This document shows positions 2,927-58,944 of a stretch of 64,000 nucleotides of DNA, in pieces. Source of the DNA: Deltaproteobacteria bacterium (GTDB lineage: Bacteria; Lernaellota; Lernaellaia; JACKCT01); assembly GCA_027493875.1 (NCBI GenBank), contig JAOSJX010000005.1, positions 62,001-126,000 on the forward strand. The letters are read 5' to 3'. The translations under genes and the position numbers were made by a program. Each line of letters opens with the position of its first letter. Within the stretch, counting starts at the first letter, position 1. The notes beneath the pieces are model-generated. The model did no database searches and was not told the DNA's origin. It worked only from the letters and a program-made list of their open reading frames with translations.

Positions 2927-2961
2927 GGTTACAGGTCACAGGTTACAGGCTACAGGCTAGG
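2927..2961. repeat. Heptamer array, five units of the GGTTACA type
   Basis: Five consecutive 7-base units (GGTTACA, GGTCACA, GGTTACA, GGCTACA, GGCTAGG) begin two bases after the lipoprotein stop codon. It is one of eleven such arrays in the window and belongs to the CCTGTAA family seen again at 30485, 31954, 48435 and 58924. Confidence 0.85.
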
Positions 2962-3001
2962 CGCGAACTGCTAACGCCGGAACGCGTTTCATCCTGGGAA
3001 C

Positions 3002-3019
3002 GCCGAGCCCCAGCTCGGC
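3002..3019. terminator. GC-rich hairpin between lipoprotein and nuclease-like gene
   Basis: GCCGAGC (3002-3008), loop CCCA, GCTCGGC (3013-3019) form a perfect 7-bp stem. No T run follows, so a terminator role is only a possibility. Confidence 0.4.
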
Positions 3020-3083
3020 CCGTATTGAGGCTCGGTGACCATCGTTAGGGAATCGATAGACCATCAAATCCGCCGGAGTGGGG

Positions 3084-4049
3084 ATGACGCCGGATCAGGG
3101 TAAGGTTTACACGAAAGGCGCGTCGTATCGCGCGCGCGCCGAGGCGAGGCAGCGCGAGTACCGGGCAAACGTCGCGCGGGCTGGCTGGTCCGAGTGGGGC
3201 CACCTACTCGACGACGTTTCCGCCGACGCGGGCGCCAACTTCGTCGTCCCCGAGGCGCACCAGGCGGCGCGCGACCGTCACGCGCTGGGCAAAGGCGTAG
3301 CGGTTCGAACCTTCAACAACATGCTCTCCAGCCAGGCGATGTGTTTCAACGTGTTCGCTCCGCTGGCGGCGGATACGAATCTTGCGTCGCGCGTTCTCCG
3401 CGGTTTCGCCGCCGGTCTGGAGACCGTGGAGAAAATCCATTTCGAATACACTCCCGCGAAAGACCTGTTTCGCGACCAGAGCGGGCGCGGCGGCGTCGAT
3501 TGCGATCTGCTCATCGAGGGAACGTGGAAAGACGGCCGGCGCGCCGTCGTAACGATCGAAACGAAATTCGTTGAGCCCGAATTCAGCGTTTGTGGATTTA
3601 GGAAGTCGGGACGCACGAAGAATGTCTGCCGCGCCGATCTTGTGCTCGACGCGAATTCATCCAAGTGCTTATACGCGACAGAAAAAAAGTATGGATACTG
3701 GGAGCAGACGCATAAGCTCGGCCAACTCCGCGACGGCCTGCTTCCGGGGCCGTGCCCGTTCGGCAGCCCGCTGTGGCAGCTTTGGGTCAATCACACGCTG
3801 GCTTTCGCGGAAGCGTCGCGCCGCAGAGTGCCGCACGCGGCGTTCGGCGTGTGCGCGCCGGCGGGTAACGAGAAGCTTCTCAACGGCGGCCGCGTCCTCG
3901 ATCTTTTTCGCTCCAACCTCAAACATCCTTCGTCCTTCTTCTTCATTCCGTTGGACGATCTCATTGGCCGCATCCGCGAAACGTGCGGACACGATCACAA
4001 ATACCGGCCGTGGCGCGACGGACTCGCCGCGCGGTACGCCGCTATCTGA
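3084..4049 (+). CDS. PD-(D/E)XK nuclease-like protein, putative restriction endonuclease
   Basis: ATG 3084 gives 321 residues. A GTG at 3078 is in frame, but GGAGTGGGG directly ahead of the ATG favours 3084. The core reads VDCDLLIEG (Asp139/Asp141), then VVTIETKF with Glu159 and Lys161. This D...ExK arrangement on consecutive strands is typical of PD-(D/E)XK nucleases. The overall form resembles the PGN_0703-type family annotated as putative restriction endonuclease (family call from memory). No methyltransferase, specificity subunit or helicase is adjacent. The flanks are repeats and an IS element, which suits a horizontally acquired, solitary defence or decay-related gene. The frame is intact. 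Substrate and activity are unknown. Confidence 0.65.
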   Translation: MTPDQGKVYTKGASYRARAEARQREYRANVARAGWSEWGHLLDDVSADAGANFVVPEAHQAARDRHALGKGVAVRTFNNMLSSQAMCFNVFAPLAADTNLASRVLRGFAAGLETVEKIHFEYTPAKDLFRDQSGRGGVDCDLLIEGTWKDGRRAVVTIETKFVEPEFSVCGFRKSGRTKNVCRADLVLDANSSKCLYATEKKYGYWEQTHKLGQLRDGLLPGPCPFGSPLWQLWVNHTLAFAEASRRRVPHAAFGVCAPAGNEKLLNGGRVLDLFRSNLKHPSSFFFIPLDDLIGRIRETCGHDHKYRPWRDGLAARYAAI

Positions 4050-4090
4050 ACCGCTTCGCCGCGTTGCGGCTCCGGGCCGCGGCCTAAAAA

Positions 4091-4114
4091 AATCCCGCGC
4101 GTTCGCGCGGGATT
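4091..4114 (-). terminator. Terminator hairpin (AATCCCGCGCG stem)
   Basis: An 11-bp stem AATCCCGCGCG / CGCGCGGGATT with a TT loop. Read on the minus strand it is followed by seven T, giving a classic intrinsic terminator for the outer-membrane protein gene before the IS element inserted. Close copies occur at 5994 and 30445, each beside a heptamer array. Confidence 0.75.
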
Positions 4115-4122
4115 CGTTGTGC

Positions 4123-4150
4123 GTTGACTGTGGACTGTTGACTGTTGACC
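4123..4150. repeat. Heptamer array, four GTTGACT units
   Basis: Units GTTGACT, GTGGACT, GTTGACT, GTTGACC are exactly four times seven bases. The array sits between the hairpin at 4091 and the left end of the IS630 element. Confidence 0.85.
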
Positions 4151-4170
4151 TTCGACGGGCGGCGCGGGGC

Positions 4171-5159
4171 TAGAGCACTTCACGGTTGCATGTAGCCACA
4201 TGATTTGAACCACCCGAAAGCGTCGTCGGCGGTGACGGTGCGGAGAGCTTCGCCGATGGCGCGGAAAAGTGCGTCGAGGGTTCGGGCTTTGACCTTGCGG
4301 AGATATGCTTTGATCTTGGACCACATCTTCTCGATGGGATTGAGATCGGGACTGTACGGCGGCAGGTAACGCACCTGCGCTCCGACCGCCTCGATGAGGT
4401 GCGTCACCGCCGGGCTCTTGTGTGGCGCGAGGTTGTCCATCACCACCACGTCGCCCGCCCGCAGCCTCGGTGCCAGGACATGCTCGATGTACGTCTCGAA
4501 TGCGGCGCCGTCGGTGGCCCCGTCGATGACCCAATCGACCGTTTGTCCGTTGAACCACAGCGCCGAGATCATGGTGGTCGTGTTCCAATGCCCGTGCGGC
4601 GACGCATCCACCACGCGCCCTCCGTCGAAGGCGCGCCCGTAAAGCCGGGTCATGTTGGTCTTGGCGCCGCTCTCGTCCAGAAAAATCAGGTGCGACGAGT
4701 CGATCCCGTCCGTTTCTTGGCGCAAGCCTTCCGCCGGGCTTGGACGTCGGGACGGTCCTGCTCACGGGCGCGGAGTGACTTTTTTTTCGGCGGCAGCCCA
4801 AACGGCCCAGCGCCCGATGAACGGCCATGATGCTGCCGTGGCCGCCCGTGGCTGCCAGCAGTTCTTCGAGCGTGGCGTCCGGTTTTCGCAAACCGCCTTC
4901 TTCAAGGCTTCCAACCGCGGACCTTGATAAACAGCCTGCCGGCCGCCGCCATGCGGTTTCGGCGCGATCGACTCGCCCCGCCGCCGCCGGCCCAAGAGAT
5001 TTCTCACGAATCCGTAGCTGACACCGAACCGGGCTGCGATGTCCCGCTTCGTCACCCCGCCGCGTTCGTAAGCCGCCACCACCTTCTCGCGTAGGTCCAT
5101 CGAATAAGCGCTCATGTCTGACGTATCGGCATAGCCAACGCCAAACGTGAATTGCTCTA
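4171..5159 (-). mobile_element. IS630-family insertion sequence, about 985 bp, with TA flanks
   Basis: Imperfect terminal inverted repeats are visible: TAGAGCACTTCACGGTT at the left end and, on the opposite strand, TAGAGCAATTCACGTT at the right end. Both begin with TA, the usual IS630 target duplication. The only gene is a frame-broken transposase. The right end lies inside the reading frame of an outer-membrane beta-barrel gene, so the element truncates it. IS630 elements move by a DDE transposase and insert at TA. Confidence 0.85.
4180..5115 (-). CDS. IS630-family transposase, in three reading frames
   Basis: ATG 5115 begins [20 protein letters not shown], an IS630 helix-turn-helix ([20 protein letters not shown]). 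The sense path leaves this frame near 4890 at CGAAAAC (a -1 step into [18 protein letters not shown]). It changes again at an A8 run (4780-4787 on the plus strand reads T8) and once more near 4727, where a G seems missing (gct tg[g] cgc). The C-terminal frame carries the DDE core: [12 protein letters not shown] (first Asp), [11 protein letters not shown] (second Asp) and [16 protein letters not shown] (Glu). IS630 members can use programmed slippage, and the A8 run is a plausible site. The third break argues for decay or sequence error. It probably makes no full transposase as written. Confidence 0.8.
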
Positions 5160-5882
5160 ACGCCTCAACGGATAGACGAACCCCAGGGGACAGACCGACA
5201 TACGCCGCGTTGAGATCGGGCTCGTCGGGACGATCGTCCTCGAAATCACCGTGGTAGTCGGCTGTCTGCGACGCCACGAACGAGTACCCGCCAAAGAGAA
5301 TCAGTTCGAGATGCTCGAACCGAAAACGGAACCCGGCTTCCGGTCCCGCTGAAAACGCCCGTCCTTCGACCTGCCCGTTCATCGCGTTTTTCTTGTACGT
5401 CCCAGTGACGATACTTTGTTCGTAGGTGGCGAGACCGGCTCCCCCGCCGGCATAGGGAATAAACCAATCGGTGACGCGGTACCCGTAAGTAAGCATGATC
5501 GTTGCCCAGCCGACGGAAATCGTGGATTGCCGGTCCCCCCGTCGCGCCTCTCCATCATACCCGTTGCCGACGACATCAAGCGCCAGCCGATGATCGCTCT
5601 GGGCGAGCCACCATTCGAATCCGATCGCGAAACGCCCCCGAGCCGCTGGCCGTAGTTGTCGAGATCCGCCTCCTCCAATTGGTTGTCGAATTGTCCGATG
5701 TCCCAGAAAGGATAAGAGAACCCGAACTGGAAGGTGATGGCCTCGTCGCATTTTTTCGTCGTTTCGTCGTCGTCTTCGTCGTATTCGTCTTGCGCGAGGG
5801 CGGTTGCTCCCATGGCGAGGACCGCGACGACCGCCGCCAGGAGAACGAGGAACCGGTGATCATGCCGTTGCGCGGTGATCAT
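5160..5882 (-). pseudogene. Outer-membrane beta-barrel protein, 3' end replaced by IS630
   Basis: ATG 5882 follows a perfect AAGGAGG seven bases upstream. Residues 1-31 are a signal peptide (LVLLAAVVAVLAMGATALAQ), then an acidic start (DEYDEDDDETTKK) and alternating strands such as ITFQFGFSYPFWDIG. A frame break lies near 5637 at a C5 run. The continuation FAIGFEWWLAQSDHRLALD, WFIPYAGGGAGLATYE and FEHLELILFGGYSFVA is typical barrel sequence. At 5158-5159 the IS630 right end interrupts the frame after GVRLSVEAL, and the reading frame then runs into transposase sequence. The protein has therefore lost its terminal strand or strands and would gain an unrelated tail. The family is OmpW/opacity-like at best. 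Confidence 0.7.
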
Positions 5883-5958
5883 GATCGGCCTCCTTGGTTG
5901 TGCCGGGAGGCATTATAGAGCGGTTCGAGGCGGTGGAGGAGATTGAGGGTCGGTTAAA

Positions 5959-5982
5959 AGTTTACAGCTAACAGTTGACAGT
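5959..5982. repeat. Heptamer array, AGTTTAC / AGTTGAC units
   Basis: AGTTTAC, AGCTAAC, AGTTGAC and a partial AGT. It belongs to the same family as the array at 4123 and lies 12 bases from the hairpin at 5994. Confidence 0.75.
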
Positions 5983-5993
5983 ATGAATGATTA

Positions 5994-6017
5994 AATCCCG
6001 CGCGTCAGCGCGGGATT
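5994..6017. terminator. Terminator-like hairpin AATCCCGCGC
   Basis: A 10-bp stem AATCCCGCGC / GCGCGGGATT with loop GTCA, almost identical to the hairpin at 4091. It lies downstream of acnA and is bracketed by heptamer arrays on both sides. Confidence 0.65.
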
Positions 6018-6023
6018 CGATTC

Positions 6024-6051
6024 ACTGGCGACTGGCGACTGGCCACTGGCG
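6024..6051. repeat. Heptamer array, four ACTGGCG units
   Basis: ACTGGCG, ACTGGCG, ACTGGCC, ACTGGCG. This differs in sequence from the other arrays but keeps the 7-base period. It ends 15 bases from the acnA stop codon. Confidence 0.85.
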
Positions 6052-6066
6052 GCTATTGACGGCCTG

Positions 6067-8792
6067 TCAATTCCGCTCGCGTTTGATGAACTCGCGCAGG
6101 ACGAGGTTCAGGATGCCGCCGTGGCGGTAGTAGTCGATCTCCACGGTGGAATCGAGGCGGCAGCGCGCGGTGAAGCATTTCGTGCCGCCCTCGCCCGCCG
6201 CGTCCACGGTCACGTCCTGCCCGGGTTTCAGGCTGTCGTCCACGCGAATCGTGAACGTTTCTTTGCCCGTCAGTCCGAGGCTCTCCGCGCTTTCGCCGTC
6301 TTTGAATTGCAACGGGAGCACGCCCATGCCGATGAGGTTGCTTCGGTGGATCGTCTCAAAGGAGCGCGCGATAACGGCGCGCACGCCGAGCAGCGTCGTG
6401 CCCTTCGCGGCCCAGTCGCGCGACGATCCCATGCCGTAGTCGATGCCGCCGAGCACCACGGCGGGCACGCCCTCTTCCTTGTACTTGAGCGACGCTTCGT
6501 AGATCGACGTCACCTCGCCGGACGGGTAGTGCGTCGTCCAGTTGCCTTCCTTGCCCGGCGCAAGCTTGTTGCGGATGCGGATGTTGCCGAAGGTGCCGCG
6601 CGTCATGACGCGGTCGTTGCCCGCGCCGGCTGCCGAAGGAGTTGAACTGCGCGGGCGTCACGCCGTGTTCGATGAGATAACGGCCGGCGGGGCTGTCCGG
6701 CGGAATCGAACCGGCCGGGCTGATGTGGTCCGTCGTGACGCTGTCGCCCACGTACACGAGCACGCGCGCGTTTTCGATCGGGCGGATCGGCTCCGGCTCG
6801 CCGCTCATATCGACGAAGAACGGCGGCTCCTGAATGTACGTCGAGGTTTCCTTCCAGTCGTACACGGCGCCGCCGGAAACGGGAATCTCGTTCCACTCCT
6901 TGTTGCCCGTCTCGACGCCGCCGTATCGGCTGCGGTAGGTTTCCGGATCGTTCGCCGCCGCCAGATGCGAGGCGATCTCCTCGTCCGTCGGCCAAACGTC
7001 GCGCAGGTAAACGGGCGCGCCATCCGAACCGGTGCCGATGGGATCGTTCAGCAAATCGATATCGACCGTGCCCGCGAGACCGTAGGCGACAACGAGGATC
7101 GGCGACATGAGGTAATTGGCGCGCGTCAACGGATGCACGCGCCCTTCGAGAGTTGCGGTTGCCGGAAAGCACGGACGCGGCGACGAGTTTCCCGTCGTCG
7201 ATCGCCTTGGCGATGTGCTCCGGCAGCGGGCCGCTGTTGCCGATGCACGTGGTGCATCCGTAGCCGACCGTGTTGTAGCCGATTTTGTCGAGATACGGCG
7301 TGAGGCCGGAGCGGTCGAGGTAGTCGGTGACCACCGTCGATCCGGGCGCCAGCGACGTCTTCACGTGTTTCGGCACGGACAGGCCGCGCTCGCTCGCTTT
7401 TTTCGCAAGGACGCCGGCGCCGATCATCACCCAGGGGTTCGACGTGTTCGTGCAGCTCGTAATCGCGGAGATCACGACGTCGCCGTGACGCAGTTCGGCC
7501 GTGCCGTCGTTCGGAAAATGCACCGTCGCCTTCGCGTCCAATTTGTCGGCGGAAAGGCCGAAGCCGCGTTCCTCGACGGGTTTTTCGAGCATCGTTTTCC
7601 AATGCGGCTTCATCGCGTCGAGCGCGACGCGGTCCTGCGGGCGTTTCGGACCGGCAACGCTCGGGACGACCGTGGAAAGGTCAAGCTCGACGACGTCGGT
7701 GAAGACCGGATCGGGCGCGTTCGCGTCGCGCCACATTCCTTGCTCTTTCATGTAGCGCTCGACGAGATCGATCAAATCGTCCGGACGGCCCGTGTTGCGC
7801 AGGTAGCGCAGCGTCTGATCGTCCACCGGGAAGATGGCGCAGCGCGCGCCGTACTCGGGGCACATGTTGGAAATGGTCGCGCGGTCGGCGAGGGACATGC
7901 CGTCCAGGCCGTCGCCGAAGAACTCGACGAATTTTTCCGACCACGCCCTTCTTGCGCAGAAGCTCCGTGACGACGAGGACCAGATCCGTCGCCGTCGTGC
8001 CGACGGGAATCTTGCCCGTCAGGCGCACGCCGATGACCGGCGGCGGCAGCATGAAAAGGGCTGGCCGAGCATAACGGCTTCGGCCTCGATGCCGCCGACG
8101 CCCCAGCCGAGCACGCCCAGGCCGTTGACCATCGTCGTGTGCGAATCGGTGCCGACGAGCGAATCGGGAAACGCGAAAGTGCCGCCGTCTTCCTTTCGCG
8201 TCTGCACGACGCGAGCGAGGTACTCAAGATTCACCTGATGGCAGATGCCGTTGGCCGGCGGCACGACGCGGAAGTTCTCGAACGCGCGCTGCCCCCAACG
8301 CAGGAACTCGTAGCGCTCGCGGTTGCGGTCGAACTCGAACGTCGCGTTGCGCGCGAGGGCGTCGGCGGAGCCGAACACGTCCACCTGCACGCTGTGGTCG
8401 ATGACGAGATCGACGGGGAGGATCGGGTTGATGCGTTCGGGGTTGAAGCCGAAGCGGTGCATCGCGCTGCGCAGCGCGGCGAGATCCACGACGGCGGGCA
8501 CACCGGTGAAATCCTGCATCAACACGCGCGCCGGCATGTAGGGAACGGCTTCGCTGCCGGGGGCGGCGGGATCGTATTTCGCCGCGCGTTCCACGTCGTC
8601 CTTCGTGACGATTTTTCCGTCCTCGGAACGCAACACGGACTCGATCACGACGCGGATCGAAAAAGGAAGACGCGAGATCTTCGCGACGCCCGCTTCCTCA
8701 AGCGCGGGAAGACTGCGGTAGGCGACGGACCCGCCGGCGGTGTCGAGCGTGCGTTTTGTGTTGAACGAATCCAAGGAAGCGCGCATGGTCAT
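6067..8792 (-). CDS. acnA: Aconitate hydratase (AcnA type), four frame breaks
   Basis: It interconverts citrate and isocitrate in the TCA cycle using a [4Fe-4S] cluster. ATG 8792 follows AAAGGAGTT. The full span is about 908 codons, normal for AcnA. Cluster cysteines appear in SCTNTSNP (about residue 440) and [11 protein letters not shown] (about 510). Other signatures are [29 protein letters not shown] and [15 protein letters not shown] in the C-terminal swivel domain. Frame breaks lie at 8053-8056 (T4 where T5 is expected), 7934-7938 (an extra A), about 7152, and 6629-6631 (an extra G). Each restores a good AcnA sequence after a one-base correction, so the gene is probably functional and the reads were at fault. 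It is divergent from alaS across a 153-base gap. Confidence 0.95.
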
Positions 8793-8945
8793 CAGATCAA
8801 CTCCTTTTCATTTCCTTGTCTATGTCCGCCGGCGGCGGGGCCCTCTTTTTATGCGAGGTTGGCCCGCGGGGCAATGCTTGTCCTTACGCGGCTCTTAGCG
8901 TAAATCAGGGCCTTCGCGTTCGGTTGGTTTGGTAAGGAGCCGGTG

Positions 8946-11548: not shown

Positions 11549-11552
11549 GAGC

Positions 11553-13477
11553 GTGGCTCCCTCGGAGAAAAATAGCGCCGCGACGATCACCGATTACGAC
11601 CTGCACCTTTTCAACGAAGGCAGTTTTTTTCGGGCGTACGAGAAGATGGGGGCGCACGTGTGCCTGCGCGACGGGCAGGCGGGCGTGGTGTTCCGCGTGT
11701 GGGCGCCGGACGCCCAAAGCGCGGCGGTGATCGGCGATTTCAACGGGTGGAACTGGGACGCGCATCCGATGCGTTCGTTGGGTGGCTCGGGCGTATGGGA
11801 GGCGTTTATTCCGGGCCTGGGACAAGGCGCGCTCTATAAATTCGGTTTCCGGTCTCGCGGCACGGGCCAGGCACTGGAAAAAGTCGATCCCTACGCCACG
11901 CATTTCGAAATGCGCCCGAAGACCGCGTGCGTGGTGTGGCCGGTGGACGACTACGCGTGGGCCGACGGTGCGTGGATGGCCGAACGCGCGCGGCGCAACG
12001 CGCACGACGCGCCGATGTCGATCTACGAAGTGCACCTAGGCTCCTGGCGGCGCACGGAGGACAGCCGCTGGCTGACCTACCGCGACCTCGCCGACGCCCT
12101 GCCCACGTACTGCCGCGAAATGGGTTTCACGCACGTCGAGTTTCTCCCCATCACCGAGCATCCCTTCGACGGATCGTGGGGTTATCAGACCATCGGCTAC
12201 TTCGCGCCGACGTCGCGCTTCGGCACGCCGCAGGATTTCATGGTCCTCGTGGACAAGCTGCATCAGGCGGGCGTCGGCGTGATTCTGGATTGGGTGCCGG
12301 CGCATTTTCCGCGCGACGCGCACGGCCTGGGCGAATTCGACGGCACGCATCTCTACGAGCACGCGGACCCGCGCCAGGGCGTGCATCAGGATTGGGATAC
12401 GTACATTTTCAATTACGGGCGCGACGAGCTGCGTTCGTATCTGATTTCCAGCGCGCTTTATTGGCTGGACAAGTTCCACCTCGACGGGCTGCGCGTGGAC
12501 GCCGTGGCCTCCATGCTCTATCTCGACTACTCGCGCGAGGGCGGCGACTGGGTGCCCAACAAATACGGCGGGCGCGAGAACCTCGAGGCGATCGAGTTCA
12601 TCAAGCGCTTCAACGCGACCGTGTATTCCGAGTTTCCCGGCACCGTGACCTTTGCGGAGGAATCGACCGCGTGGCCGATGGTGTCGCGGCCGACCTACCT
12701 CGGCGGGCTCGGCTTCGGCATGAAGTGGAACATGGGATGGATGCACGACATCCTGAAGTATTTTTCGATGGACCCGATTTATCGGAAGTACTCACCACAA
12801 CTTGCTGACCTTCGGGATGCTCTACATCTATCACGAGAATTTCGTGCTGCCGTTTTCGCACGACGAAGTCGTTCACATGAAGGGCTCGATGCTGCGCAAG
12901 ATGCCGGGCGACGGGTGGCAGAAGTTCGCGAACCTGCGTCTGCTGTATGGGTTCATGTTCGGCTATCAGGGCAAAAAGCTGCTGTTCATGGGCAACGAGT
13001 TCGGCCAGGGTGAGGAGTGGAGCCACGATCGCGGCCTCGATTGGAATCTGCTCGATCGCGCTCCGCAACGCGGGCTCAAGGACTGGGTGCGCGATCTCAA
13101 CGCGGCGCTGGCGCGCGAGGCGGCGCTGCACGAACAGGATTTTGCGCCCGAAGGCTTTACGTGGATCGACTGCCACGACAGCCAGCAAAGCGTTATCAGC
13201 TTTCTGCGCTTCGGACGAAGCGACGGGGGAGATCGTCGCCGTGGCGTGCAACATGACGCCGGTGGTCCGGCACGGATACCGGCTGGGCGTTCCGCGCCCC
13301 GGCGTGTGGCGCGAGATCCTCAACAGCGACGCCGGCACGTACGGCGGATCGAACGTGGGCAACAACGGTCAGGCCTACGCGGACGGCGGACGGCCCTGGC
13401 ACGGACAGCCTTGCTCGATGGACGTGACGCTGCCGCCGCTCGGCGTCGTGTTTTTTAGGTGGGTAGGTGGTAGGTAG
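11553..13477 (+). CDS. glgB: 1,4-alpha-glucan branching enzyme, two frame breaks
   Basis: It adds alpha-1,6 branches to glycogen. GTG 11553 has GGAG four bases upstream and sits just behind the alaS stop. The N-terminal CBM48 module is at about residues 35-115 ([20 protein letters not shown]). The GH13 barrel carries [16 protein letters not shown] (nucleophile Asp near 315), [10 protein letters not shown] (Glu near 368) and [16 protein letters not shown] (third Asp near 436). Breaks occur near 12790 (YRKY continues as [17 protein letters not shown]) and near 13215 (RFGRS continues as [14 protein letters not shown]). The protein ends in [12 protein letters not shown], and the last residues and the TAG stop are supplied by the heptamer array at 13457. 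Glycogen storage is implied. Confidence 0.93.
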
Positions 13478-13491
13478 TAGATAGTAGGTAG
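13457..13491. repeat. Heptamer array, five TAGGTAG-type units
   Basis: AGGTGGG, TAGGTGG, TAGGTAG, TAGATAG, TAGGTAG. It contains the glgB stop codon. It is complementary in composition to the 35-base array at 13539, and the two could pair around the hairpin at 13505. Confidence 0.85.
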
Positions 13492-13504
13492 GACTGGAGA
13501 AATT

Positions 13505-13523
13505 AGCGGCGCAAAGCGCCGCT
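13505..13523. terminator. Bidirectional hairpin between convergent glgB and selB
   Basis: AGCGGCGC, loop AAA, GCGCCGCT: an 8-bp perfect stem located between two inverted heptamer arrays. It sits where transcripts from both strands would end. Confidence 0.6.
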
Positions 13524-13538
13524 CGTCCTTTATCCCCA

Positions 13539-13563
13539 CCTACCACCTACTACCCACCACCTA

Positions 13564-13573
<10 letters not shown>
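13539..13573. repeat. Heptamer array, five CCTACTA-type units
   Basis: CCTACCA, CCTACTA, CCCACCA, CCTACTA, CCTACTG. It is the inverse-complement partner of the array at 13457, with the same unit number and length. It contains the downstream stop codon of the selB frame (13564-13566). Confidence 0.85.
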
Positions 13574-15519
<1,946 letters not shown>

Positions 15520-15532
15520 TGAAGCGTTGGAG

Positions 15533-30394: not shown

Positions 30395-30436
30395 GCGTCA
30401 AGAGTCAACAGTCAAAAGTCGAGAGTCAACAGTCAA
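30395..30436. repeat. Heptamer array, six GAGTCAA-type units
   Basis: GCGTCAA, GAGTCAA, CAGTCAA, AAGTCGA, GAGTCAA, CAGTCAA. It is the reverse-complement family of GTTGACT at 4123 and is followed after eight bases by the hairpin at 30445. Confidence 0.85.
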
Positions 30437-30444
30437 CGGAAAGC

Positions 30445-30470
30445 GAATCCCGCCCGTTTGCGCCGGATTC
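30445..30470. terminator. Imperfect hairpin GAATCCCGC
   Basis: GAATCC and GGATTC arms with an imperfect GC-rich inner stem; a decayed copy of the hairpins at 4091 and 5994, again with heptamer arrays on both sides. Confidence 0.5.
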
Positions 30471-30484: not shown

Positions 30485-30533
30485 GTGACCTGTAACCTGT
30501 GACCTGTGACCTGTAACCTGTAACCGGTAGCCT
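30485..30533. repeat. Heptamer array, seven GTAACCT / GTGACCT units
   Basis: Seven units of seven bases: GTGACCT, GTAACCT, GTGACCT, GTGACCT, GTAACCT, GTAACCG, GTAGCCT. The IS481 element begins within ten bases of its end and the same repeat family resumes on the other side, so the element appears to split one larger array. Confidence 0.85.
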
Positions 30534-30543
30534 GGGTCCAGGT

Positions 30544-31946
30544 TCAGGACATGGGTAACACTTCTGGTTCAGGACCTAGGTAACGGTTTAATCGGTTGGA
30601 CTTCCGCTTGGAGGAGGTCCGCCGATGCCCTGGAAGGAGCGTGATGCCATGAGTCTTCGCCTGGAATTCGTGTTGCGCAGTCTGACCGAGCCCACGCCGT
30701 TTCGAACGCTTTGCGCCGAATACGGTGTCAGCCCCAAGACCGGCTATAAGTGGAAACAGCGTTTTTTCCAAGAGGGGTCCTCCGGTCTTCACGATCAGTC
30801 GCGTCGTCCCGCCGCGAGCCCCGCGGCGCTGCCGGAACAGGTCGTCTGCGAGATCGTCCGGCTGAAACAGGCGCACCGGACCTGGGGGCCGCGGAAAATC
30901 CGGGAACTCTACGCGCGCCGCCACCGCGCTCAACCTCTTCCGTCGGAGAGTTCCGTGAAGCGCGTTCTGGACAAAGCGGGTCTAGTCGAGAAGCGCCGTT
31001 CGCGCCGGTCCCGCGACACGGGCCGGCTTCAAAGCCGGGTCGACGCCCAAGCCCCCAACGACGTCTGGACGGTGGATTTCAAGGGCTGGTGGTACACGCC
31101 CACCCACGAGCGGTGCGAACCGTTCACCGTCCGCGACGCCTACAGCCGGTATGTGCTGGCTTCGGCGATTCTCCCCGACGCCCGCACCGAGACGGTGCAG
31201 CAGGCCTGCGAAGGTCTGTTCGAGCGCTACGGATTACCCGGCACGATCCGCAGCGACAACGGGCGTCCTTTCGCCGCGACGACCGCTCCCCTTGGGGTTG
31301 AGCCGCCTGTCAGCGTGGTGGCTGGCCCTGGGGATCGACCTGGACCGCATCGACCCCGGCTGCCCCTATCAGAACGGCGCGCACGAGCGGATGCACGGCG
31401 ACTTGGCCCGGGACCTCGAACGACGCATCAACGGCGATCTGGCCCGCCACCAAGCGGCGTTGGAGACATGGCGCCATACCTTTAATGACGAACGGCCTCA
31501 CGAGGCGCTGGGCATGCGGTGCCCGGCGGAGATCTACAGCCCGTCCTCGCGGCGTTACGAGGGGACGCCGGATCAACTCGATTACCCCGACGATCTCCTC
31601 GACCGCCGTGTCAACGCCGCCGGACAAATCAAGCTCCACGGCATGGCGATCGCCATCAGCACGGCGCTGCGCGGTTGGAACGTCGGCCTGAAGCCGCGGG
31701 GCGGACGGGAGTACGCGCTTTACTTCGCGCGGCTTTGTTTGGGACGGGTCGACCTGAGCACCGAGTCGTTCCACCCCGCGACAAACGAGGACCTGCGATG
31801 CGACGGGTAACCTGCCGCCCGTCGGCGAACGCGCAACGCGTTGGGGGCCTCCGGGAGGCTCCGCCTCCCTCCGCCCCCCAACGCGTGATCCCCAAGCCGA
31901 AAAGTGTTACCCATGTCCTGACCCAGATCCGTTACCCATGTCCTGA
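30544..31946 (+). mobile_element. IS481-family insertion sequence, about 1.4 kb
   Basis: Terminal inverted repeats TCAGGACATGGGTAAC are found at 30544-30559 and, inverted, at 31931-31946. A second, inner copy occurs at each end (TCAGGACCTAGGTAAC at 30569; inverted copy at 31905-31920), so each terminus has two transposase-type binding sites. One transposase gene lies inside. No clear target duplication is visible because the flanks are repeats. The element sits between two parts of a heptamer array (30485-30533 and 31954-32023). Confidence 0.85.
30625..31810 (+). CDS. IS481-family transposase, one frame break
   Basis: ATG 30625 follows GGAGGAGG. The N-terminal helix-turn-helix is FRTLCAEYGVSPKTGYKWKQ. 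The rve/DDE core shows VWTVDFKGWW (first Asp), GTIRSDNGRPF (second Asp) and CPYQNGAHERMHGDLARDLE (Glu). The frame changes near 31288, where GGGG appears to contain one extra G (FAATTAPLG continues LSRLSAWWLALGIDLDRIDP). The C-terminal part (HTFNDERPHEALGMRCPAEI, then a small beta domain to EDLRCDG) is intact. About 395 codons, normal for the family. With one base corrected the transposase would be complete. Confidence 0.88.
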
Positions 31947-31953
31947 TTGCTCC

Positions 31954-32023
31954 CCTGTGACCTGTAGCCTGTAACCTGTAGCCTGCAGCCTGTAGCCTGT
32001 GGCCTGTAGCCTGCAGCCTGTGC
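31954..32023. repeat. Heptamer array, ten CCTGTAG-type units
   Basis: Ten uninterrupted 7-base units (CCTGTGA, CCTGTAG, CCTGTAA, CCTGTAG, CCTGCAG, CCTGTAG, CCTGTGG, CCTGTAG, CCTGCAG, CCTGTGC), the longest array in the window. It lies between the IS481 right end and the DegT-family gene. Confidence 0.9.
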
Positions 32024-38744: not shown

Positions 38745-39938
38745 TCAGCGGAGCGCGGCGAGTGCGTCCGCGATCCGTCCGATCCCGCGCTCGATGTCCG
38801 CGTCGCCGAGCGCATACGACAAACGCACGTTGGCGTCCGCGCCGAACGCCCCGCCCGGCACGACGGCGACGAGCGCCTTTTCAAGCAGATAGTCCGAAAG
38901 ATCGAACGAATTTTCGATCACGCGGTCGCCGTCGCGTTTTCCGTAATACGCCGAAACGTTCGGAAACACATAGAACGCGCCTTGCGGCCGGAAGCACGTC
39001 ACGCCGGGAATGGCGGTGAGCAGCCGCAGGATCAATTCGCGGCGCCGCGCGAACGCGTCGATCATCGGCGCGAGATCGCCGGCCGTCAGCGCCAGCGCGG
39101 TGACCGCGGCCTTCTGCGCGAAGGTCGGCATGTTGGACGTGGACTGGCTTTGCAGCGCCGCGCACGCCGAGACGAACTCCTTCGGCCCGAGGGCGTAGCC
39201 CAGTCGCCACCCCGTCATCGCGAAGGTTTTGGAAAAACCACTGACGATGATCGTGCGTTCTTTGAGTCCCGGCGCGACGGAGACGAAGGGAACGAATTCG
39301 AACCCGTCGTACACCAGATATTCGTAAATTTCGTCGGTGAGGACGACGATGTCGCGTTCGACGACCACCTTCGCCAGCGCTTCCAACGCCGCGCGCGGAT
39401 ACGCGGCGCCGGTCGGGTTCGACGGACTGTTGAGCACCAGCATCCGAGTCCGCGGGGTAATCGCCGCGCCGAGCGCTTCCGGCGTCAACGTGAAGCCGGT
39501 CGATTCGTCCGTCGTCACGATCACCGGTTTACCGCCCGCGATTTCCACCATCGGCGGATAACTGACCCAGTACGGCGCCGGAACGATCACCTCGTCACCC
39601 GGATCGAGCAACGCGAGAAAGGCCTCGAAAATGGCGTGTTTGCCGCCGCACGTGACGAGCGTTTCCGCCGGCTCGTAAGCCAGTCCGTAGTCGCGCTGAT
39701 AATGCGTGGCGATGGCCTTGCGGAGTTCGGGAAAACCGGGCGCCGGCGAATACTTCGTCAGACCGGCGTCGAGCGCGGCCTTGGCGGCGTTCTTCACCGC
39801 CTCCGGCGTATCGAAATCGGGTTCGCCCGGCCCGAAACTCACGACGTCCTTGCCGTCGGCGACGAGCGCTTTGGCTTTGGCGTCGATGGCCAGGGTTTGA
39901 CTCGGAGGAATGGCGGAGACGACCTTGGAAATTTTCAT
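38745..39938 (-). CDS. aspC: Aspartate aminotransferase (class I, I-gamma type)
   Basis: 397 residues, intact. MKISKVVSAIPPSQTLAIDA is followed by SFGPGEPDFDTPEAVKNAAK, the Arg/Gly PLP-site stretch CGGKHAIFEAFLALLDPGDE, NSPSNPTGAAYPRAALEALA, VVLTDEIYEYLVYDG (PLP-contacting Asp and Tyr) and SGFSKTFAMTGWRLGY with the Schiff-base Lys. It interconverts aspartate and oxaloacetate with glutamate. Members of this subgroup may also accept prephenate, which cannot be decided from sequence by eye. It sits between coaD and the anchored propeller-like gene, all on the minus strand. Confidence 0.9.
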   Translation of the reverse strand: MKISKVVSAIPPSQTLAIDAKAKALVADGKDVVSFGPGEPDFDTPEAVKNAAKAALDAGLTKYSPAPGFPELRKAIATHYQRDYGLAYEPAETLVTCGGKHAIFEAFLALLDPGDEVIVPAPYWVSYPPMVEIAGGKPVIVTTDESTGFTLTPEALGAAITPRTRMLVLNSPSNPTGAAYPRAALEALAKVVVERDIVVLTDEIYEYLVYDGFEFVPFVSVAPGLKERTIIVSGFSKTFAMTGWRLGYALGPKEFVSACAALQSQSTSNMPTFAQKAAVTALALTAGDLAPMIDAFARRRELILRLLTAIPGVTCFRPQGAFYVFPNVSAYYGKRDGDRVIENSFDLSDYLLEKALVAVVPGGAFGADANVRLSYALGDADIERGIGRIADALAALR

Positions 39939-41011: not shown

Positions 41012-41013
41012 GG

Positions 41014-46941: not shown

Positions 46942-47076
46942 AAAACAACGCTCCTTCCAGACCTATCGGCATTTGATTCAAATTTGATTATCGGGGCGTA
47001 ATTCCGACTGACGGTCAGAGCAAGGGGTGTTCCCCACGCAGCAAATTTTGCTCGCGAATACCGTGCTGACTTTCGT

Positions 47077-48359: not shown

Positions 48360-48434
48360 CCTTCGCGCTCCAGATCTTTATAAAAGGAGGCGGACGATAA
48401 CACGCCTCAGGCGCGGTGTCATGGCGGGATGGAA

Positions 48435-48462
48435 CAGGTTGCGGGTTGCAGGTCACTGGTCA
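48435..48462. repeat. Heptamer array, four CAGGTTG-type units
   Basis: CAGGTTG, CGGGTTG, CAGGTCA, CTGGTCA: more degenerate than other arrays but with the same 7-base period. Confidence 0.65.
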
Positions 48463-48660
48463 CAGATTTTTCGGAACAAACGACGATGAATCATGCTCCC
48501 TCCCGCCGTTACGCGACATCATCCCCGCGATCGGCAGTTGACGGCGCTTGTTGACCCGCTTTGTCCGGTCAAAACGCGAATAGGAGGAGGGAAGAATATT
48601 GACGTTCGGGTGCGAGGCTTGGAGTGGGAAGAAACGGTGGTGGGAAGGAGCAGAGGAAAT

Positions 48661-48783
48661 GCGAGACGCCGCGTACTCACCGAGTGAGCACGCGCTCATC
48701 CGATACCCAGACCGTCGCCGTGCCCGAATCGCCGTCCGCGTACTCACCGCGCGAGACGCTGCGTGCTCACCGCGTGAGCACGC
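48661..48783. repeat. Pair of 33-base palindrome-containing direct repeats
   Basis: Copies at 48661-48693 and 48751-48783 start exactly 90 bases apart and match at most positions. Each contains a 10-bp hairpin (GCGTGCTCAC, 3-base loop, GTGAGCACGC; perfect in the second copy, one mismatch in the first). A partial third copy lies at 48738. Confidence 0.75.
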
Positions 48784-48827
48784 ACGCGCCCGTCGCCGAG
48801 ACCGTCAACCGCGTTCGATGGACGCCG

Positions 48828-54346: not shown

Positions 54347-54409
54347 GACGCGCTGTCCGAAACCTCGGCGCCATGATAACGCACGCGCCCGCGATTGTCT
54401 TGGCGGCGT

Positions 54410-54901
54410 TTACGGGAGGGAATTCCAGGGATTGTCGTTTTCCGCGGGGTCTTTGACGGGGCGCTTTTCCCTGAACAGTTCCGGCTCGTAACGCGTGCCG
54501 CTCCATCGGTAGACGATGCGTTGCGAGGCCGGCGTCCATACGGCGATGTCCGAAAATCCCTTGGTTTGTTTGGCCAAAACGTCGAAGCTGCCCGGCAACG
54601 TGCCGATGTTTTTGTACTTGCCGAACAGTTCCTGGAAAACTTCCTGATCGCAATGCCCTTTCAGCGAGCACGAAAACTGCTTCTTGTTGATGATGAATTC
54701 GTTGCGCGCGTCGCCGTTCAGATCGACCGTCGTCACGGTGTAGTCCGCGCAGTCCACGTCCTTGGGGTTCATGTCGCCGAAAAAAGCGAAGATTTCCGGC
54801 GGGATCGTGTCGCGGCAATCCTTGGCGGCGCCGGCGAGTCCCGGAAAGGCGATGATCCCGGCGGTCAGCGCGGCCAAAAACCATGTCGTCAACGCACGCA
54901 C
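54410..54901 (-). CDS. Secreted protein of unknown function with a DxNGDxxxE repeat
   Basis: 163 residues, intact. The signal peptide at 1-25 (MRALTTWFLAALTAGIIAFP, cleavage after AGA) precedes KDCRDTIPPEIFAFFGDMNP. The segment TTVDLNGDARNEFIINKKQF resembles a single FG-GAP/Ca-binding loop of the kind that reports a stored quantity. Two Cys pairs (DCRD, DCAD, SCSL, HCDQ) could form disulfides. No family recognised. It lies upstream of the phosphatase gene with a 63-base gap and may be in the same operon. Confidence 0.7.
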   Translation of the reverse strand: MRALTTWFLAALTAGIIAFPGLAGAAKDCRDTIPPEIFAFFGDMNPKDVDCADYTVTTVDLNGDARNEFIINKKQFSCSLKGHCDQEVFQELFGKYKNIGTLPGSFDVLAKQTKGFSDIAVWTPASQRIVYRWSGTRYEPELFREKRPVKDPAENDNPWNSLP

Positions 54902-55062
54902 GGCGCTACCCCAAACCTCATGACCGCAGCCCGGTTCATTCGGAAACCGGGGCGGAATCGTTCATGGTGAAGGAGGGCATAGTAAAATTTTCGTCCGGGA
55001 CTTTGCAAGGTGCGCGTGTCGATTCAAAAATAAGGCCGGATGCCGCGTAAATCGTTACGACC

Positions 55063-55092
55063 AAGGCGGCACGGAGATTTCCGTGCCGCCTT
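55063..55092 (-). terminator. Intrinsic terminator with 12-bp stem
   Basis: AAGGCGGCACGG, loop AGATTT, CCGTGCCGCCTT. It is 24 bases past the stop codon at 55117; strong, GC-rich and with modest flanking A/T. Confidence 0.7.
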
Positions 55093-55116
55093 GAGGTTCG
55101 TGAAGAGAGAAAAGTG

Positions 55117-56174
55117 TCAGTACACGCAGGATTGCGTCTGGCAGACCAGGATCAGGGCGACGCCGCGCGGCGCGACGTTGCCCGTGAAGAAAGTCTTCGA
55201 CGCACCGGGGTTGAACGACTGCCACGCCCCGGCGTGACCGCCGCGTGATCGTTCGTCGTCGGATCGAGACGCAGCACGCGGTAGTACGCGGGATTTGAAA
55301 ACTCCGGCGTCGGCGCCATCGTCACCCACATGTTCCGCGTCCCGTCGTAAAGATTCGCCGCGACGTGAAGAATCTTCGTCGGCGTCCCGCTTGCTTGGTA
55401 GTCCTGCCACGACGACGTGAGAATTCTTTGGTCAACAAACGGGGCTTCTTCACTCGGACAATAATTGAACAAGCTCATGTCCGAGCAATGCTCCCACGCC
55501 TCGCCGGGCGTGAGGGGCGCGAGTGACCGCTGGGCGAAATGATAATACTCGAACGCCCCCTCCTGGTTGAGCACGGTCTTGAGACCCGTTTCGCGCGGTT
55601 CCCCGGTGACCAGAAAATCCGGCGCGATGTAGTTGCGAACGGCCGCGGCCATGCGCAGGTAGAGTTCCTTGTGTGGATGCTCGTATTTGCGCGATCCGCT
55701 GAACCATCGGCTCCGCCACGCCTGGTGAAATCAGGCGCCCTCCAGCGAACTGGAGTAGGCGTAAACTTCGATGTCACCCCCGAAGACGCCGCAAATGAGC
55801 GGATTTTCCCCCGCGAAACCGGTGCTGAGGATGTTTCGTTTTATTTCAGGCATCAGAATCAGACGGACCGGAGGATCCTCGAACTCGCCGGCGTCGTCAC
55901 GTGGGTATTCCTTATCGTCGAGAACGACCGTCCCGTCGGGCAACGACCAATGGATCAACCGGCCGCTGTCTTCCGAGTAGATCATTGTGGCCGCCCCGTT
56001 GACCACGACGTCACCTTCGTCGGACGCGTAGACCTCGGTACCGTCGATCAAGTCTTCATCCTCGTAAACGTCGCTCCCCTTCGCTGGGGGTGCAAAAGCG
56101 AGTACTGGAATCAGTAATAGCAGCGCAGGGAGTACAAGAACGCGAAACCGTCGCACAAAGACAACGAACGTCAT
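55117..56174 (-). CDS. Secreted protein of unknown function with an in-frame TGA and one frame break
   Basis: ATG 56174 begins a signal peptide (MTFVVFVRRFRVLVLPALLL, cleavage after AKG) and an acidic start (SDVYEDEDLIDGTEVYASDE). The first part ends SSSLEGA at a TGA (55731-55733). The same frame stays open beyond it with coding character (FHQAWRSRWFSGSRKYEHPH, KELYLRMAAAVRNYIAPDFL, AFEYYHFAQRSLAPLTPGEA, CSDMSLFNYCPSEEAPFVDQ). A break near 55233 then leads to AWQSFNPGASKTFFTGNVAP and QTQSCVY. About 350 codons if read through. A real nonsense change, an error or stop recoding are all possible. Function not recognised; it probably acts outside the cell. Confidence 0.55.
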
Positions 56175-56254
56175 GGTGTCCCCCTTAGGTTAACTTTACG
56201 ACCCAGGAATCGATCCTCTTGCCGGCAAGAGGATCGAGCAAACACTTCCTCGAT

Positions 56255-57548
56255 TCAATTCGGTTGCCGCGTCACGAGAATAAGCACTTGTCCTTCTTCG
56301 ACACTCGTCATGTTACCGATGGCTCCTATTCGGCCCAGCGAGGACGACGCGAGATCCATAATGTATCTTAGGCCGACCGCTAAAGGCCGAATCGTTTCCG
56401 CGATAGTTCCATTCTGGGTATTCACGACGAAGCAAAAATAACTGGTCGATTCGCCGCCGACGACGGCATACGGTCTGTCCAGATTATCGACCGCCATTGC
56501 CGGCCAGTGATTCGTCGATCGCGCGGGCACCCCCAGGACGAAAACACGAGCTGCGATCCGTCATACACCGCGTGCCAAAGCCGCTCGCCTTCCAGAATCG
56601 GCGCGCTGTGAACCGTGCCGGCCGAATCCACCGCCGTCCCGCTGTTCGCCACGAACGCGAACGGCGCAAGTCCCGCGATTTCGTCAATAAAAGGAGAGAC
56701 GGAGAGGCACGAACCGTAGGAATGTCTCACCAGACGGCCCGGGCCGACCCACAACGTGTGCATCAGGCCGTCTCCGCCGACCGCGGCGCGGTACAGGGTT
56801 TCGGCTGAACACGCCGTAAAGTCGCCCTCCGGCGTCTGCTCGACCAGCCAGTCCGAGCCGGAATGATACGTCATGCCGAAGCGTCCGTCGGGAAACCGAA
56901 ACAGCTTATAGAACTCTGTTATCCCCGTGTCGCCGACCGGAACGACCTCCGCGATCTCGCCGTCATCCCAACGCACGAGGCTGAGCGTCGTCGGCGAGAT
57001 CACGCCGTCGTAATCAAAATACCCCGTCCACACCCGCCCTTCGCCGTCCACGGCGAGGCCCTCGATGGCGTAAACCCCGTCGCTCTCGGAAACGACGAGT
57101 TTTTGTTGCTCCCATTGGCCGTTCTCAAACTTGCCAAGGTAAAAGTCGCTCCGCCAGCGACCCGAGTCATAAACGTTCCAACGTACGTATAGTGTCTCGC
57201 CGTGAAACGCGACAAATCCATCGTATGAGACGTCTTCGGCCGGTAGCGACGCGAGTTCGATTGTCTTCCACTCCCAGCCGGGTTCGCGTGGGACTTCGCG
57301 CGCGGCGAGGCACCAGTTATAATCCGCGTCGGGTTTGCGGTCGTGGGGAAATCCGTCGTCGTCGCCCCCATCGTCGTCATCATCATGATCGGGGGATCGA
57401 TATTCGACGAATCGTCGTCGTCATCATCTCCATTTTCGGTGGGCTCGCTTTGAGAAGAGGAACCGCTATCGCCGCAACCGCACGCGTGCAGGGACAGCAA
57501 CACGACCGTCACAAAAAACATCACGAACACGATTGAAGCGCGCCTCAT
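56255..57548 (-). CDS. Asp-rich lipoprotein, propeller-like, two frame breaks
   Basis: ATG 57548 encodes MRRASIVFVMFFVTVVLLSL with lipobox LHAC, then CGCGDSGSSSQSEPTENG and a run of Asp, an acidic spacer directly behind the anchor. After a break near 57390 within the Asp run the sense path continues RKPDADYNWCLAAREVPREP, VAFHGETLYVRWNVYDSGRW, LAVDGEGRVWTGYFDYDG and LMHTLWVGPGRLVRHSYGSC. A break near 56530 then gives NHWPAMAVDNLDRPYAVVGG and SVEEGQVLILVTRQPN. The repeated short strands suggest a beta-propeller. It resembles the lipoprotein at 26295-28687 in plan (Cys anchor, Asp linker, propeller) and is probably a surface-exposed relative. Confidence 0.65.
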
Positions 57549-57658
57549 GACCGCACTCCAGAAGACAGGCTGATTTTGCGCCCGCGACGATAGAACCGCA
57601 AGAAAAATCCGATCCATAAATTTTTTCCATCGCTTGTCGGCGAACGGGTGCGGGGTCT

Positions 57659-58111
57659 ATGATGAAGGAGAACAACGGCGAGGTGGTCATGAGCGACGAC
57701 GCGCGCGACCGTGATTCCAACGACGAAAAAACGCCGCTCCGGCGCGCCGACCTGCTCGGCGCCGAGGAGAGCGACGCCGAGCCCGTCACCGACGTCACGT
57801 GGGTGCCGCTCACGCGCGATCTCGACCAGATCCAGGCGCAACTGCTCAAAGACGAGCTTGAAAGCGCCGGTATCCCGGTCGTCATCACCGGCAGTTCCAT
57901 CGACTCGTTTCACCTCTACCCCGGCGTCGAAAATTCGGTGCTGGTCCCGCGGCGCTGGTTCGACGAGGCGCGCGGCCTCGCCGATGATTTTCTGACCCGC
58001 GTCGGCGCGATGGAGGACCAGTCGATCTGCTCGAACTGCGGCGCCGCGGTGCCCGAGGAGGCCTCATCCTGCCCCGAGTGCGGCGAACAATTCGACGAAG
58101 AGGGCGACTGA
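57659..58111 (+). CDS. DUF2007-like protein with C-terminal zinc ribbon
   Basis: 150 residues from ATG 57659. A start at ATG 57689 (MSDDARDRDSNDEKTPLRRA) has the better-placed GAGGTGG, so 140 residues may be correct. A disordered acidic N-terminus is followed by WVPLTRDLDQIQAQLLKDEL and ESAGIPVVITGSSIDSFHLY, the DUF2007-type fold, with SVLVPRRWFDEARGLADDFL. A zinc ribbon (CSNCG, CPECG) ends the protein. DUF2007 members are small putative signalling proteins. Cytoplasmic, intact. The next gene overlaps its 3' end. Confidence 0.8.
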   Translation: MMKENNGEVVMSDDARDRDSNDEKTPLRRADLLGAEESDAEPVTDVTWVPLTRDLDQIQAQLLKDELESAGIPVVITGSSIDSFHLYPGVENSVLVPRRWFDEARGLADDFLTRVGAMEDQSICSNCGAAVPEEASSCPECGEQFDEEGD

Positions 58112-58888
58112 CAACGGCGATTCTTCTCGCGGCGGGCCTGGCACTTTGCGCCGCCGGGGCCGCGGCCGTGGAACCCTGCGCGGTCGACGGTGAGGACGAA
58201 TGGCTCGACGCGCTCGCGGCCGGCCGTTTCGCCTGGGCGCAGTCCCGCGCCGTCGCATGGCAAAAAATGCGGATTGCGCGTGCGCGTCGCCTGAAGACGC
58301 GTGCCTCGCGTTTCACGCGGGCGACCGGACGGAAACCGTATCGCCGGACGATCTGGCGACGCTCGTTTCGGAGACGATCGTGTGGACGTCGCGCGCCCAA
58401 GCCGAATGCGATCCCCTTTTCGGCGGGGACGATATCGGCCGGTACGCGCGCGACGCGTGCCTCGACCGCGAAGCCCGCAAAGCCGAAGGGTTGTCGGAGA
58501 CGAGCAAGCGCCTCGCGGGACCGCTGCTCGAACGCGCGGCGAAGCATCTCGCCGCCAACCCCCGGGATCGCGGGAAACGGGTCCGGCGCCCTATACCCCG
58601 ATGACCTCGCCGAGTCCCGGATCGGTTTTGGCCGAACGCGACGAGAAGCGGCGGGCGAAGGCGGCGGAAGAGTTGTGCGCGATGGGCTTGGAGCTGCGGC
58701 GGCTCAAGGAGAAAATCGAGAACATGAAGCGCCAGCCGTCGTACATGCGCGGCGCGCAGGACCGCCGTCTCACGAACGCCGAGGATATGCGGGACCGGCT
58801 GCAGGAAGCCATCGAACGCGGCCGGGAGAGTTATCGGCACCTCGCCGGCCGCGCCTTCGACACCGCGCGCGACTGCAAAGCGGAATGA
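58078..58888 (+). CDS. Secreted protein of unknown function, two frame breaks
   Basis: GTG 58078, overlapping the previous gene by 34 bases, gives a very basic start (MRRTIRRRGRLTTAILLAAG) and a signal peptide ending CAAGAAA. Then VEPCAVDGEDEWLDALAAGR; a break near 58262 (AVAWQ into KNADCACASPEDACLAFHAG), IVWTSRAQAECDPLFGGDDI, RDACLDREARKAEGLSETSK; and a break near 58580 into APYTPMTSPSPGSVLAERDE. The C-terminus is helical and coiled (LEKIENMK-like RLKEKIENMKRQPSYMRGAQ) and ends FDTARDCKAE. Several Cys could form disulfides. No family recognised; the start is the least certain part. Confidence 0.55.
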
Positions 58889-58889
58889 A

Positions 58890-58913
58890 AAACGGCGGTT
58901 TCGGCCGCCGTTT
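58890..58913. terminator. Terminator-like hairpin between convergent genes
   Basis: AAACGGCGG, loop TTTCGG, CCGCCGTTT: a 9-bp perfect stem with T-rich 3' end, directly after the stop at 58888 and 11 bases before a heptamer array. Confidence 0.75.
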
Positions 58914-58923
58914 GTCGCTGTTG

Positions 58924-58944
58924 CTGTAACCTGTGACCTGTAAC
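58924..58944. repeat. Heptamer array, three CTGTAAC units
   Basis: CTGTAAC, CTGTGAC, CTGTAAC end exactly at the base before the stop codon of the Fe-S oxidoreductase gene (58945-58947). Confidence 0.85.

Follow-up and report, generated by a model that had tools for sequence, protein, structure and literature searches.

The 64,000-nucleotide stretch analyzed here (the window; positions 62,001 to 126,000 of contig JAOSJX010000005.1, assembly GCA_027493875.1, filed as a Deltaproteobacteria bacterium) carries arrays of short tandem units with a strict 7-base period. These heptamer arrays are confirmed as real, genome-wide and mostly intergenic. With a tandem 7-base unit above chance and a mostly non-coding place, they belong to the known class of intergenic heptamer repeats, akin to the short tandemly repeated repetitive (STRR) sequences. 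Beyond this, they combine a nearly fixed core with variable positions, show one polarity toward the near gene and draw on a lineage-specific vocabulary of words. As a whole, we read them as intergenic heptamer simple-sequence repeats that grow by slippage, whose words spread by a trans-acting step and whose survival depends on polarity, a reading that we hold with about even confidence.

Period detection was based on lag-7 autocorrelation segments with a score of at least 11, with Tandem Repeats Finder used alongside and order-2 Markov sequence as the control. The host genome comprises 5.21 Mb in 28 contigs at 78% completeness, and the samples taken from it grew by analysis from 464 kb to 864 kb and 1.26 Mb. 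Forty stretches lay at round coordinates and a second batch of 20 was partly picked around known CTGTAAC matches; density, vocabulary and polarity were recomputed without this batch. In 464 kb, 32 lag-7 segments were observed against 2 in the Markov control, which rules out a chance origin. Lags that are multiples of neither 3 nor 7 reached 6 at most (observed and Markov counts: 6 and 0 at lag 8, 5 and 0 at lag 25, 4 and 1 at lag 16; 0–3 at the others). The excess at multiples of 3 lies mostly inside coding sequence, and coding repeats are ruled out as a source because their periods are such multiples. A first, simple gene finder placed 61 segments in non-coding and 10 in coding sequence (864 kb); it called the wrong strand in places, for example for a CheA-like gene, and was superseded by a frame hidden Markov model, itself approximate, which gave 85 against 1 (1.26 Mb). 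Non-coding segments at lags 5, 6 and 8–13 numbered 0–11 each. At 47.5 arrays per Mb (800 kb at round coordinates), the genome would hold about 250.

An earlier sequence-only reading had listed eleven such arrays in the window, proposed a genome-wide system at gene ends and suggested an autocorrelation scan, naming random placement within coding regions as the outcome that would speak against it. The period is present at all eleven places, although 48435 is weak and 5959 was recovered by Tandem Repeats Finder only; nine lag-7 segments in the window score at least 11. The scan described above returned many further arrays, and these are not scattered over coding sequence. Most arrays do sit at gene ends, but those at 30395 and 30485 are exceptions: they are found on the start side of a minus-strand gene, 89 and 177 bp upstream of it on its right. 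Within the window, none of the Rfam families attains its gathering score.

The arrays follow one polarity rule that the sequence-only reading had overlooked. The single-edge test admits arrays that have exactly one gene edge at 30 nt or less and whose C and G counts differ, leaving out 6 of the 85 own arrays for equal C and G and 56 for want of a single near edge, and 20 of the 37 in a relative from the sister genus (G002, with 0.31 Mb scanned for frames). The C-richer strand reads into the near gene in 20 of 23 own arrays (15 of 17 in stretches not chosen for matches) and in 17 of 17 from the sister genus; scored by pyrimidine excess, the own count is 25 of 29. That single edge is a gene 3′ end in 20 of the 23 own arrays and in 12 of the 17. 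Position in the intergenic region also correlates with C minus G, with a Spearman coefficient of 0.48 in the own genome (p = 6e-6, n = 80; 0.56 in stretches not chosen for matches) and 0.77 in the sister genus (p = 8e-8, n = 35). A composition effect of gene edges was rejected as the source, since array-free edges deviate by at most 0.032 per nt. In other bacteria, the pattern CTGTRAC found at least 116 loci, 80 of them with names; arrays without this query word, 149 of 271 in one count, were also counted apart. Among the matches listed, polarity holds in 74 of 85 cases (47 of 54 3′ edges, 27 of 31 5′ edges), in 37 of 45 arrays without the query word, and by 59 to 17 in a looser count that keeps arrays at two edges. 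One rule thus holds for many words, for two sister genera and for the loci of other bacteria.

The same polarity was described for G-rich heptamers in three genomes (PMC4692102), and in the passages of PMC4692102 and PMC4679880 on which we draw throughout the rule of the C strand toward the gene is stated for G-rich heptamers only. The GGGAATC and GGGGA(C/T)T heptamers of Xanthomonas and Nostoc share with our arrays the period, the genome-wide spread, the non-coding excess and a place near gene edges with the G-rich strand pointing away from the gene; their role is given as unknown and their transcription was shown (PMC4692102). G-quadruplexes, proposed for the GGGAATC repeats, could in principle underlie both systems, given the common polarity of the G-richer strand (PMC4692102). 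The arrays of the window's genome mostly lack the runs of three or more G of GGGNATC-type repeats, however: three G or C in a row occur in the consensus unit of just 6 of 85 arrays there and of 3 of 37 in the sister genus. Words without such tracts obey the polarity rule anyway, and G-quadruplexes were rejected as a general cause; we consider this explanation very improbable. The arrays further differ from the PMC4692102 heptamers in comprising several words that are degenerate at set positions, and in having an insertion sequence (IS) inside or beside them.

Three of at least four families named by the sequence-only reading, CCTGTAA, GTTGACT and ACTGGCG, have a core and a polarity in common and make up a superfamily [AC]CTGNNN; TAGGTAG stands as a separate family, CCTACYA, and the genome holds further ones (CATCCYT, CCTCGYA, AACCAAM). 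Across 283 CTG-family units on the common core, the variants per position are 11, 4, 12, 9, 46, 65 and 80: [AC]CTG is nearly fixed and the following three bases are free. Over 40 arrays the counts are 11, 4, 15, 12, 49, 66 and 82, so that 42 of 239 variants fall in the core against 137 expected (p = 0.0002 by permutation of positions within arrays); seven own arrays were left without a polarity class in the family alignment. The supply of stop codons in all frames was rejected as the reason for these words, since CCTGTAA and TAGGTAG contain stops, unlike ACTGGCC, CCTCGYA and GGTTACA.

Words recur between unlinked loci. Flanks are similar in just 5 of 1081 own array pairs and, with these set aside, 51 of 1076 pairs share an identical unit up to rotation and strand, against a null of 0.15% from random intergenic heptamers (at most 0.34% in 40 draws). 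In the sister genus 79 of 663 pairs do so, and the excess over the null is about 30-fold in the own genome and about 60-fold there. Being head-to-tail heptamers, the units are unlike the repeats of at least 20 bases with unique spacers that define clustered regularly interspaced short palindromic repeats (CRISPR), and the rarity of similar flanks sets them apart from repetitive extragenic palindromic (REP) sequences or bacterial interspersed mosaic elements (BIME), in which a palindromic element including its flanks is common to the copies; separate palindromic repeats do exist in the genome.

These observations bear on two explanations of how units arise. In the first, purely local slippage, each array would stem from its own chance duplication, with 7 favored by the polymerase footprint and with place and polarity set by selection only. 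Slippage is the published view (PMC4679880, PMC4692102), both papers citing Mrazek 2007 for the footprint proposal, and non-coding repeats in the loci of other bacteria, picked though they were by a heptamer pattern, number 226 at lag 7 and 18 at lag 8. Independent seeds would nevertheless give unrelated words, at odds with the excess of identical units, and the CTG core is fixed across arrays. The common vocabulary persists with flank-similar pairs set aside, largely the outcome that local slippage should not produce. As words are common to unlinked loci without common flanks, local slippage alone is insufficient, and we judge it decidedly unlikely as the full account. In the second, an RNA-templated, telomerase-like enzyme would add the units, which would fit common words without common flanks and degenerate units around a fixed core. 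The reverse transcriptase domain RVT_1 has no match in the own genome, against one in G002 and two in another genome (G001); at 78% completeness this does not prove its absence, but a reverse transcriptase as unit writer was rejected on this count and seems to us scarcely credible.

The vocabulary changes almost completely between sister genera. The CTGTAAC pattern occurs at 49 + 59 = 108 places on the two strands of the own genome and at 0 + 0 in the sister genus, while CTCRATC occurs at 181 + 191 = 372 places in the sister genus and at 0 + 0 in the own genome; identical units make up 0.03% of pairs between the two. Period and polarity are thus kept and nearly all words replaced. The earlier proposition that period is conserved and sequence is not therefore applies between the genera but not within the genome, where units recur and the core is constrained. 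Three further genomes (G001, G003, G004) showed few or no arrays in the 26–69 kb sampled, with one segment of real sequence in G001 and none in G003 or G004. In a genome of another phylum (G022), CTGTAAC/CTGTCCC arrays were noticed at 13 places, such as C7:107424-107536, with opposite orientations about 65 bp apart on C7.

If the arrays were sites for a lineage-specific protein that binds DNA or RNA and recognizes the core at each 7-base step, selection on binding would explain a fixed core with three free bases, one vocabulary of recurring words per genome and polarity at gene edges, and MacGregor suggested S1, Csp or Csr proteins as binders of the TAACTGA heptamer (PMC4679880). Such a binder sits less well with several unrelated cores in one genome (CTG, CCTAC, CATCC, CCTCG), and the opposite strands transcribed at 5′ and 3′ ends are ill-suited to a single RNA binder. 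We regard it as a rather unlikely origin of the arrays.

The arrays, hairpins and insertion sequence of the window are as follows.
2924–2959, minus strand: CCTGTRR array of about 5 units, directly past the TAA stop (2922–2924) of a plus-strand frame.
4091–4114: hairpin AATCCCGCGCGTTCGCGCGGGATT, adjoining the array at 4115.
4115–4149, plus strand: ACTGTTG array (GTTGACT of the earlier reading), right of the hairpin, between convergent coding regions.
5953–5982, minus strand: weak GTTNACA array, left of a hairpin; below the lag-7 threshold, found by Tandem Repeats Finder only, with 73% matches.
5994–6017: hairpin AATCCCGCGCGTCAGCGCGGGATT, between the arrays at 5953 and 6024.
6024–6050, plus strand: ACTGGCG array, following the hairpin on its right; a minus-strand gene with an aconitase C domain has its 3′ end 25 nt away.
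13456–13491, minus strand: CCTACYA array, reading TAGGTGG/TAGGTAG on the top strand and located at the stop codon of a plus-strand gene with an alpha-amylase C domain.
13505–13523: hairpin AGCGGCGCAAAGCGCCGCT, between two inverted arrays.
13536–13572, plus strand: CCTACYA array that pairs with 13456 in inverted orientation and sits where a selB-like gene on the minus strand has its 3′ end.
30397–30437, minus strand: ACTGTTG-family array (top strand GTCAACA).
30446–30469: imperfect hairpin, between the arrays at 30397 and 30485.
30485–30534, plus strand: CCTGTRR array, left half; the 4-bp duplication CCTG occupies 30531–30534.
30535–31953, plus strand: IS481-family insertion sequence inside the array; the transposase frame is broken in this copy.
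31954–32022, plus strand: right half of the CCTGTRR array, in phase with the left half.
48435–48463, minus strand: weak array (top strand GGTTGCA/GGTCACT), lag-7 score 10.0.
58924–58946, plus strand: CCTGTRA array that extends into the TAG stop codon of frame 58945–60051 on the minus strand.

The sequence-only reading had also missed the insertion sequence, and had counted the arrays at 30485 and 31954 as separate. The element between them is IS481-family by its Pfam domains (LZ_Tnp_IS481, rve), carries the CCTG duplication and, when excised in silico, leaves a single in-phase array of about 15 units. Seven left ends of this IS occur in the genome, and six copies have a readable right flank. 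All six lie beside a C-type heptamer array in the same orientation, at distances of 0, 9, 5, 8, 10 or 13 bp, with CTG words in four and CATCC words in two; the array at the copy in L215 is weak (score 10), and the 4-bp duplication is present at five of the six. The seventh copy runs off its contig, and its left flank, CTGTAGCCTGCCGCCTGTACC, appears periodic by eye but falls below the threshold. Sites no more than 30 bp from an array make up about 2.2% of the non-coding bases; provided that insertions are otherwise random in non-coding DNA, all six copies landing there greatly exceeds what chance would give. For the PMC4692102 repeats generally no IS association was found, and in the literature covered by title and abstract, which takes in few subscription papers, there was no report of vocabulary change or IS targeting. 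A more specific proposal is that in each lineage a trans-acting factor writes or reads a few 7-base words at gene boundaries with a fixed polarity, and that the IS481 transposase lands polarly on arrays of any word. We put this forward tentatively and consider it more doubtful than probable by some distance.

Nine of 29 neighboring array pairs are spaced 45–55 bp apart, seven of these being closer as inverted than as direct repeats and two tied; several flank a terminator-like hairpin, and a common hairpin stands beside the arrays at 4115, at 6024 and at L186 11564. Such an arrangement could suggest that arrays are the arms of a palindromic mobile element, inverted around a hairpin and moved by Y1 transposases, for which there are 23 Y1_Tnp matches in the genome, some being pieces of one gene. 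Few array pairs have similar flanks, however, paired arrays are often unlike in word, and no strong hairpin lies past the arrays of the sister genus, which makes this origin quite improbable. Base-pairing between flanking arrays was likewise rejected as a selected feature on account of the differing words. Hairpins scoring at least 10 follow 10 of 81 arrays against 25 of 582 control ends, and 0 of 36 in the sister genus; on these counts a general partnership with terminators was rejected, and the hairpins seem to accompany gene ends without belonging to the array system.

Returning to slippage, trans spread and polarity-based survival, the proposed mechanism would run as follows. Replication slippage in 7-base steps would lengthen and shorten arrays, and purifying selection would bar them from coding sequence; together these may explain growth and confinement. 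A few words would spread among gene boundaries in trans, whether by recombination between arrays, by template switching or by selection for a shared binder, and each lineage would thereby end with its own vocabulary. Beside a gene, arrays would survive mainly where the C-rich strand reads in, in most cases immediately after the stop codon. An antisense transcript of that region would be C-rich and a sense transcript G-rich, so we propose that the likeliest effect is on transcript ends; the function might be to insulate against or terminate read-through, or to avoid false ribosome-binding sites, which is a guess.

Several results weigh against this account. Slippage does not account for words common to unlinked loci, and no spreading agent was found. 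When all arrays are assigned to the nearest gene, polarity drops to 42 of 62 in the own genome (29 of 34 in the sister genus), and the stricter test does not reach the 56 of 85 own arrays that lack a single near edge. In the sister genus, three of the four types of array-free gene edge also show a slight bias in the direction of the rule, though far below the arrays. Among the matches listed from other bacteria, only 7 of 11 other-word arrays at 5′ edges obey the rule, and the 5′ counts are partly confounded because CCTGTAA stops in all frames shorten the called frames. Hairpins scoring at least 12 past arrays show no clear difference from controls (3.7% against 2.6%), besides their absence from the sister genus. 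In L148, two copies of one left flank lead into arrays of about 17 and 33 units. Their right flanks are unlike, which leaves no clean 7-bp step and only a hint of unit-number change. Between two Cyanothece strains, indels occur mostly in 7-nt increments (MacGregor, PMC4679880).

Cyanobacterial STRRs, as Mazel is said to have described in 1990, are tandem heptamers with several families per genome. CAACAGT, which we take to be one STRR word, is a rotation of the GTCAACA at 30397. The likeness in kind to cyanobacterial heptamers that had been suggested is borne out, both being tandem, of fixed 7-base period, mostly intergenic and multi-family. The supposed contrast, several families in one genome, falls away, as this is already reported there (PMC4692102; for Microcystis, PMC4679880), including three heptanucleotides in Calothrix cited in PMC4692102. 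The TAACTGA heptamers of Beggiatoaceae, Cyanobacteria and Bacteroidetes are mostly intergenic and contain ACTG, as here. In the main bacterium of that study they run mostly forward before starts, with some reversed past stops, which amounts to the same polarity; Microcystis is mixed (PMC4679880). That system has one word, mostly before starts, whereas single-edge arrays here favor 3′ ends, and the TAACTGA unit is the word of 0 of 85 own arrays, with 0 units within them. Mrazek 2007, as cited in both papers, found heptanucleotides to be the most abundant long unit in most genomes and proposed slippage; polarity, common vocabulary and IS targeting are absent from the passages citing it.

PMC4692102 and PMC4679880 treat heptamers word by word and offer slippage, G-quadruplexes or a translational regulator as causes; their passages contain no explanation for the generality of polarity, the common vocabulary, its turnover or the IS targeting of two word families. 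One polarity rule, words common within a genome and near-total turnover in a sister genus make a trans-acting step directly testable. The IS offers an experimental handle, as something common to arrays of two word families is recognized.

Some minor observations concern the assembly and other repeats. Genes are split between frames at window positions 59343–60051 (HdrC/TfrB-like), 30625–31810 (the IS transposase), 2666, 5633 and others. Direct same-strand frame switches number 56 in 1.26 Mb of the own genome against 7 in 0.31 Mb of the sister genus, and with 78% completeness indel errors in the assembly are possible. An ARAGORN tRNA-Glu call at 39282–39373 on the minus strand lies inside an open aminotransferase frame (38745–39938) and is probably a false positive. 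A near-identical dispersed repeat of 1 kb occurs at window 4171–5160, where it seems to interrupt a minus-strand gene, and at L001 1284–2275, L175 18073–19064 and L182 13213–14210; its frame presumably encodes an IS630-type transposase, judging by a motif, and among the four copies only that in the window has an array in its nearby flanks. Intergenic mosaics of palindromic repeats (for example CGCGTGCTCAC...GTGAGCACGCG), with many partial copies, are mixed with heptamer arrays at L148 17560–18240, L006 19385–20000, L152 13120–13940, L139 11780–12175 and window 2924–3021. A Y1_Tnp match at C22:335814 has one of these mosaic copies about 80 bp away, as in systems of REP and REP-associated tyrosine transposases (RAYT).

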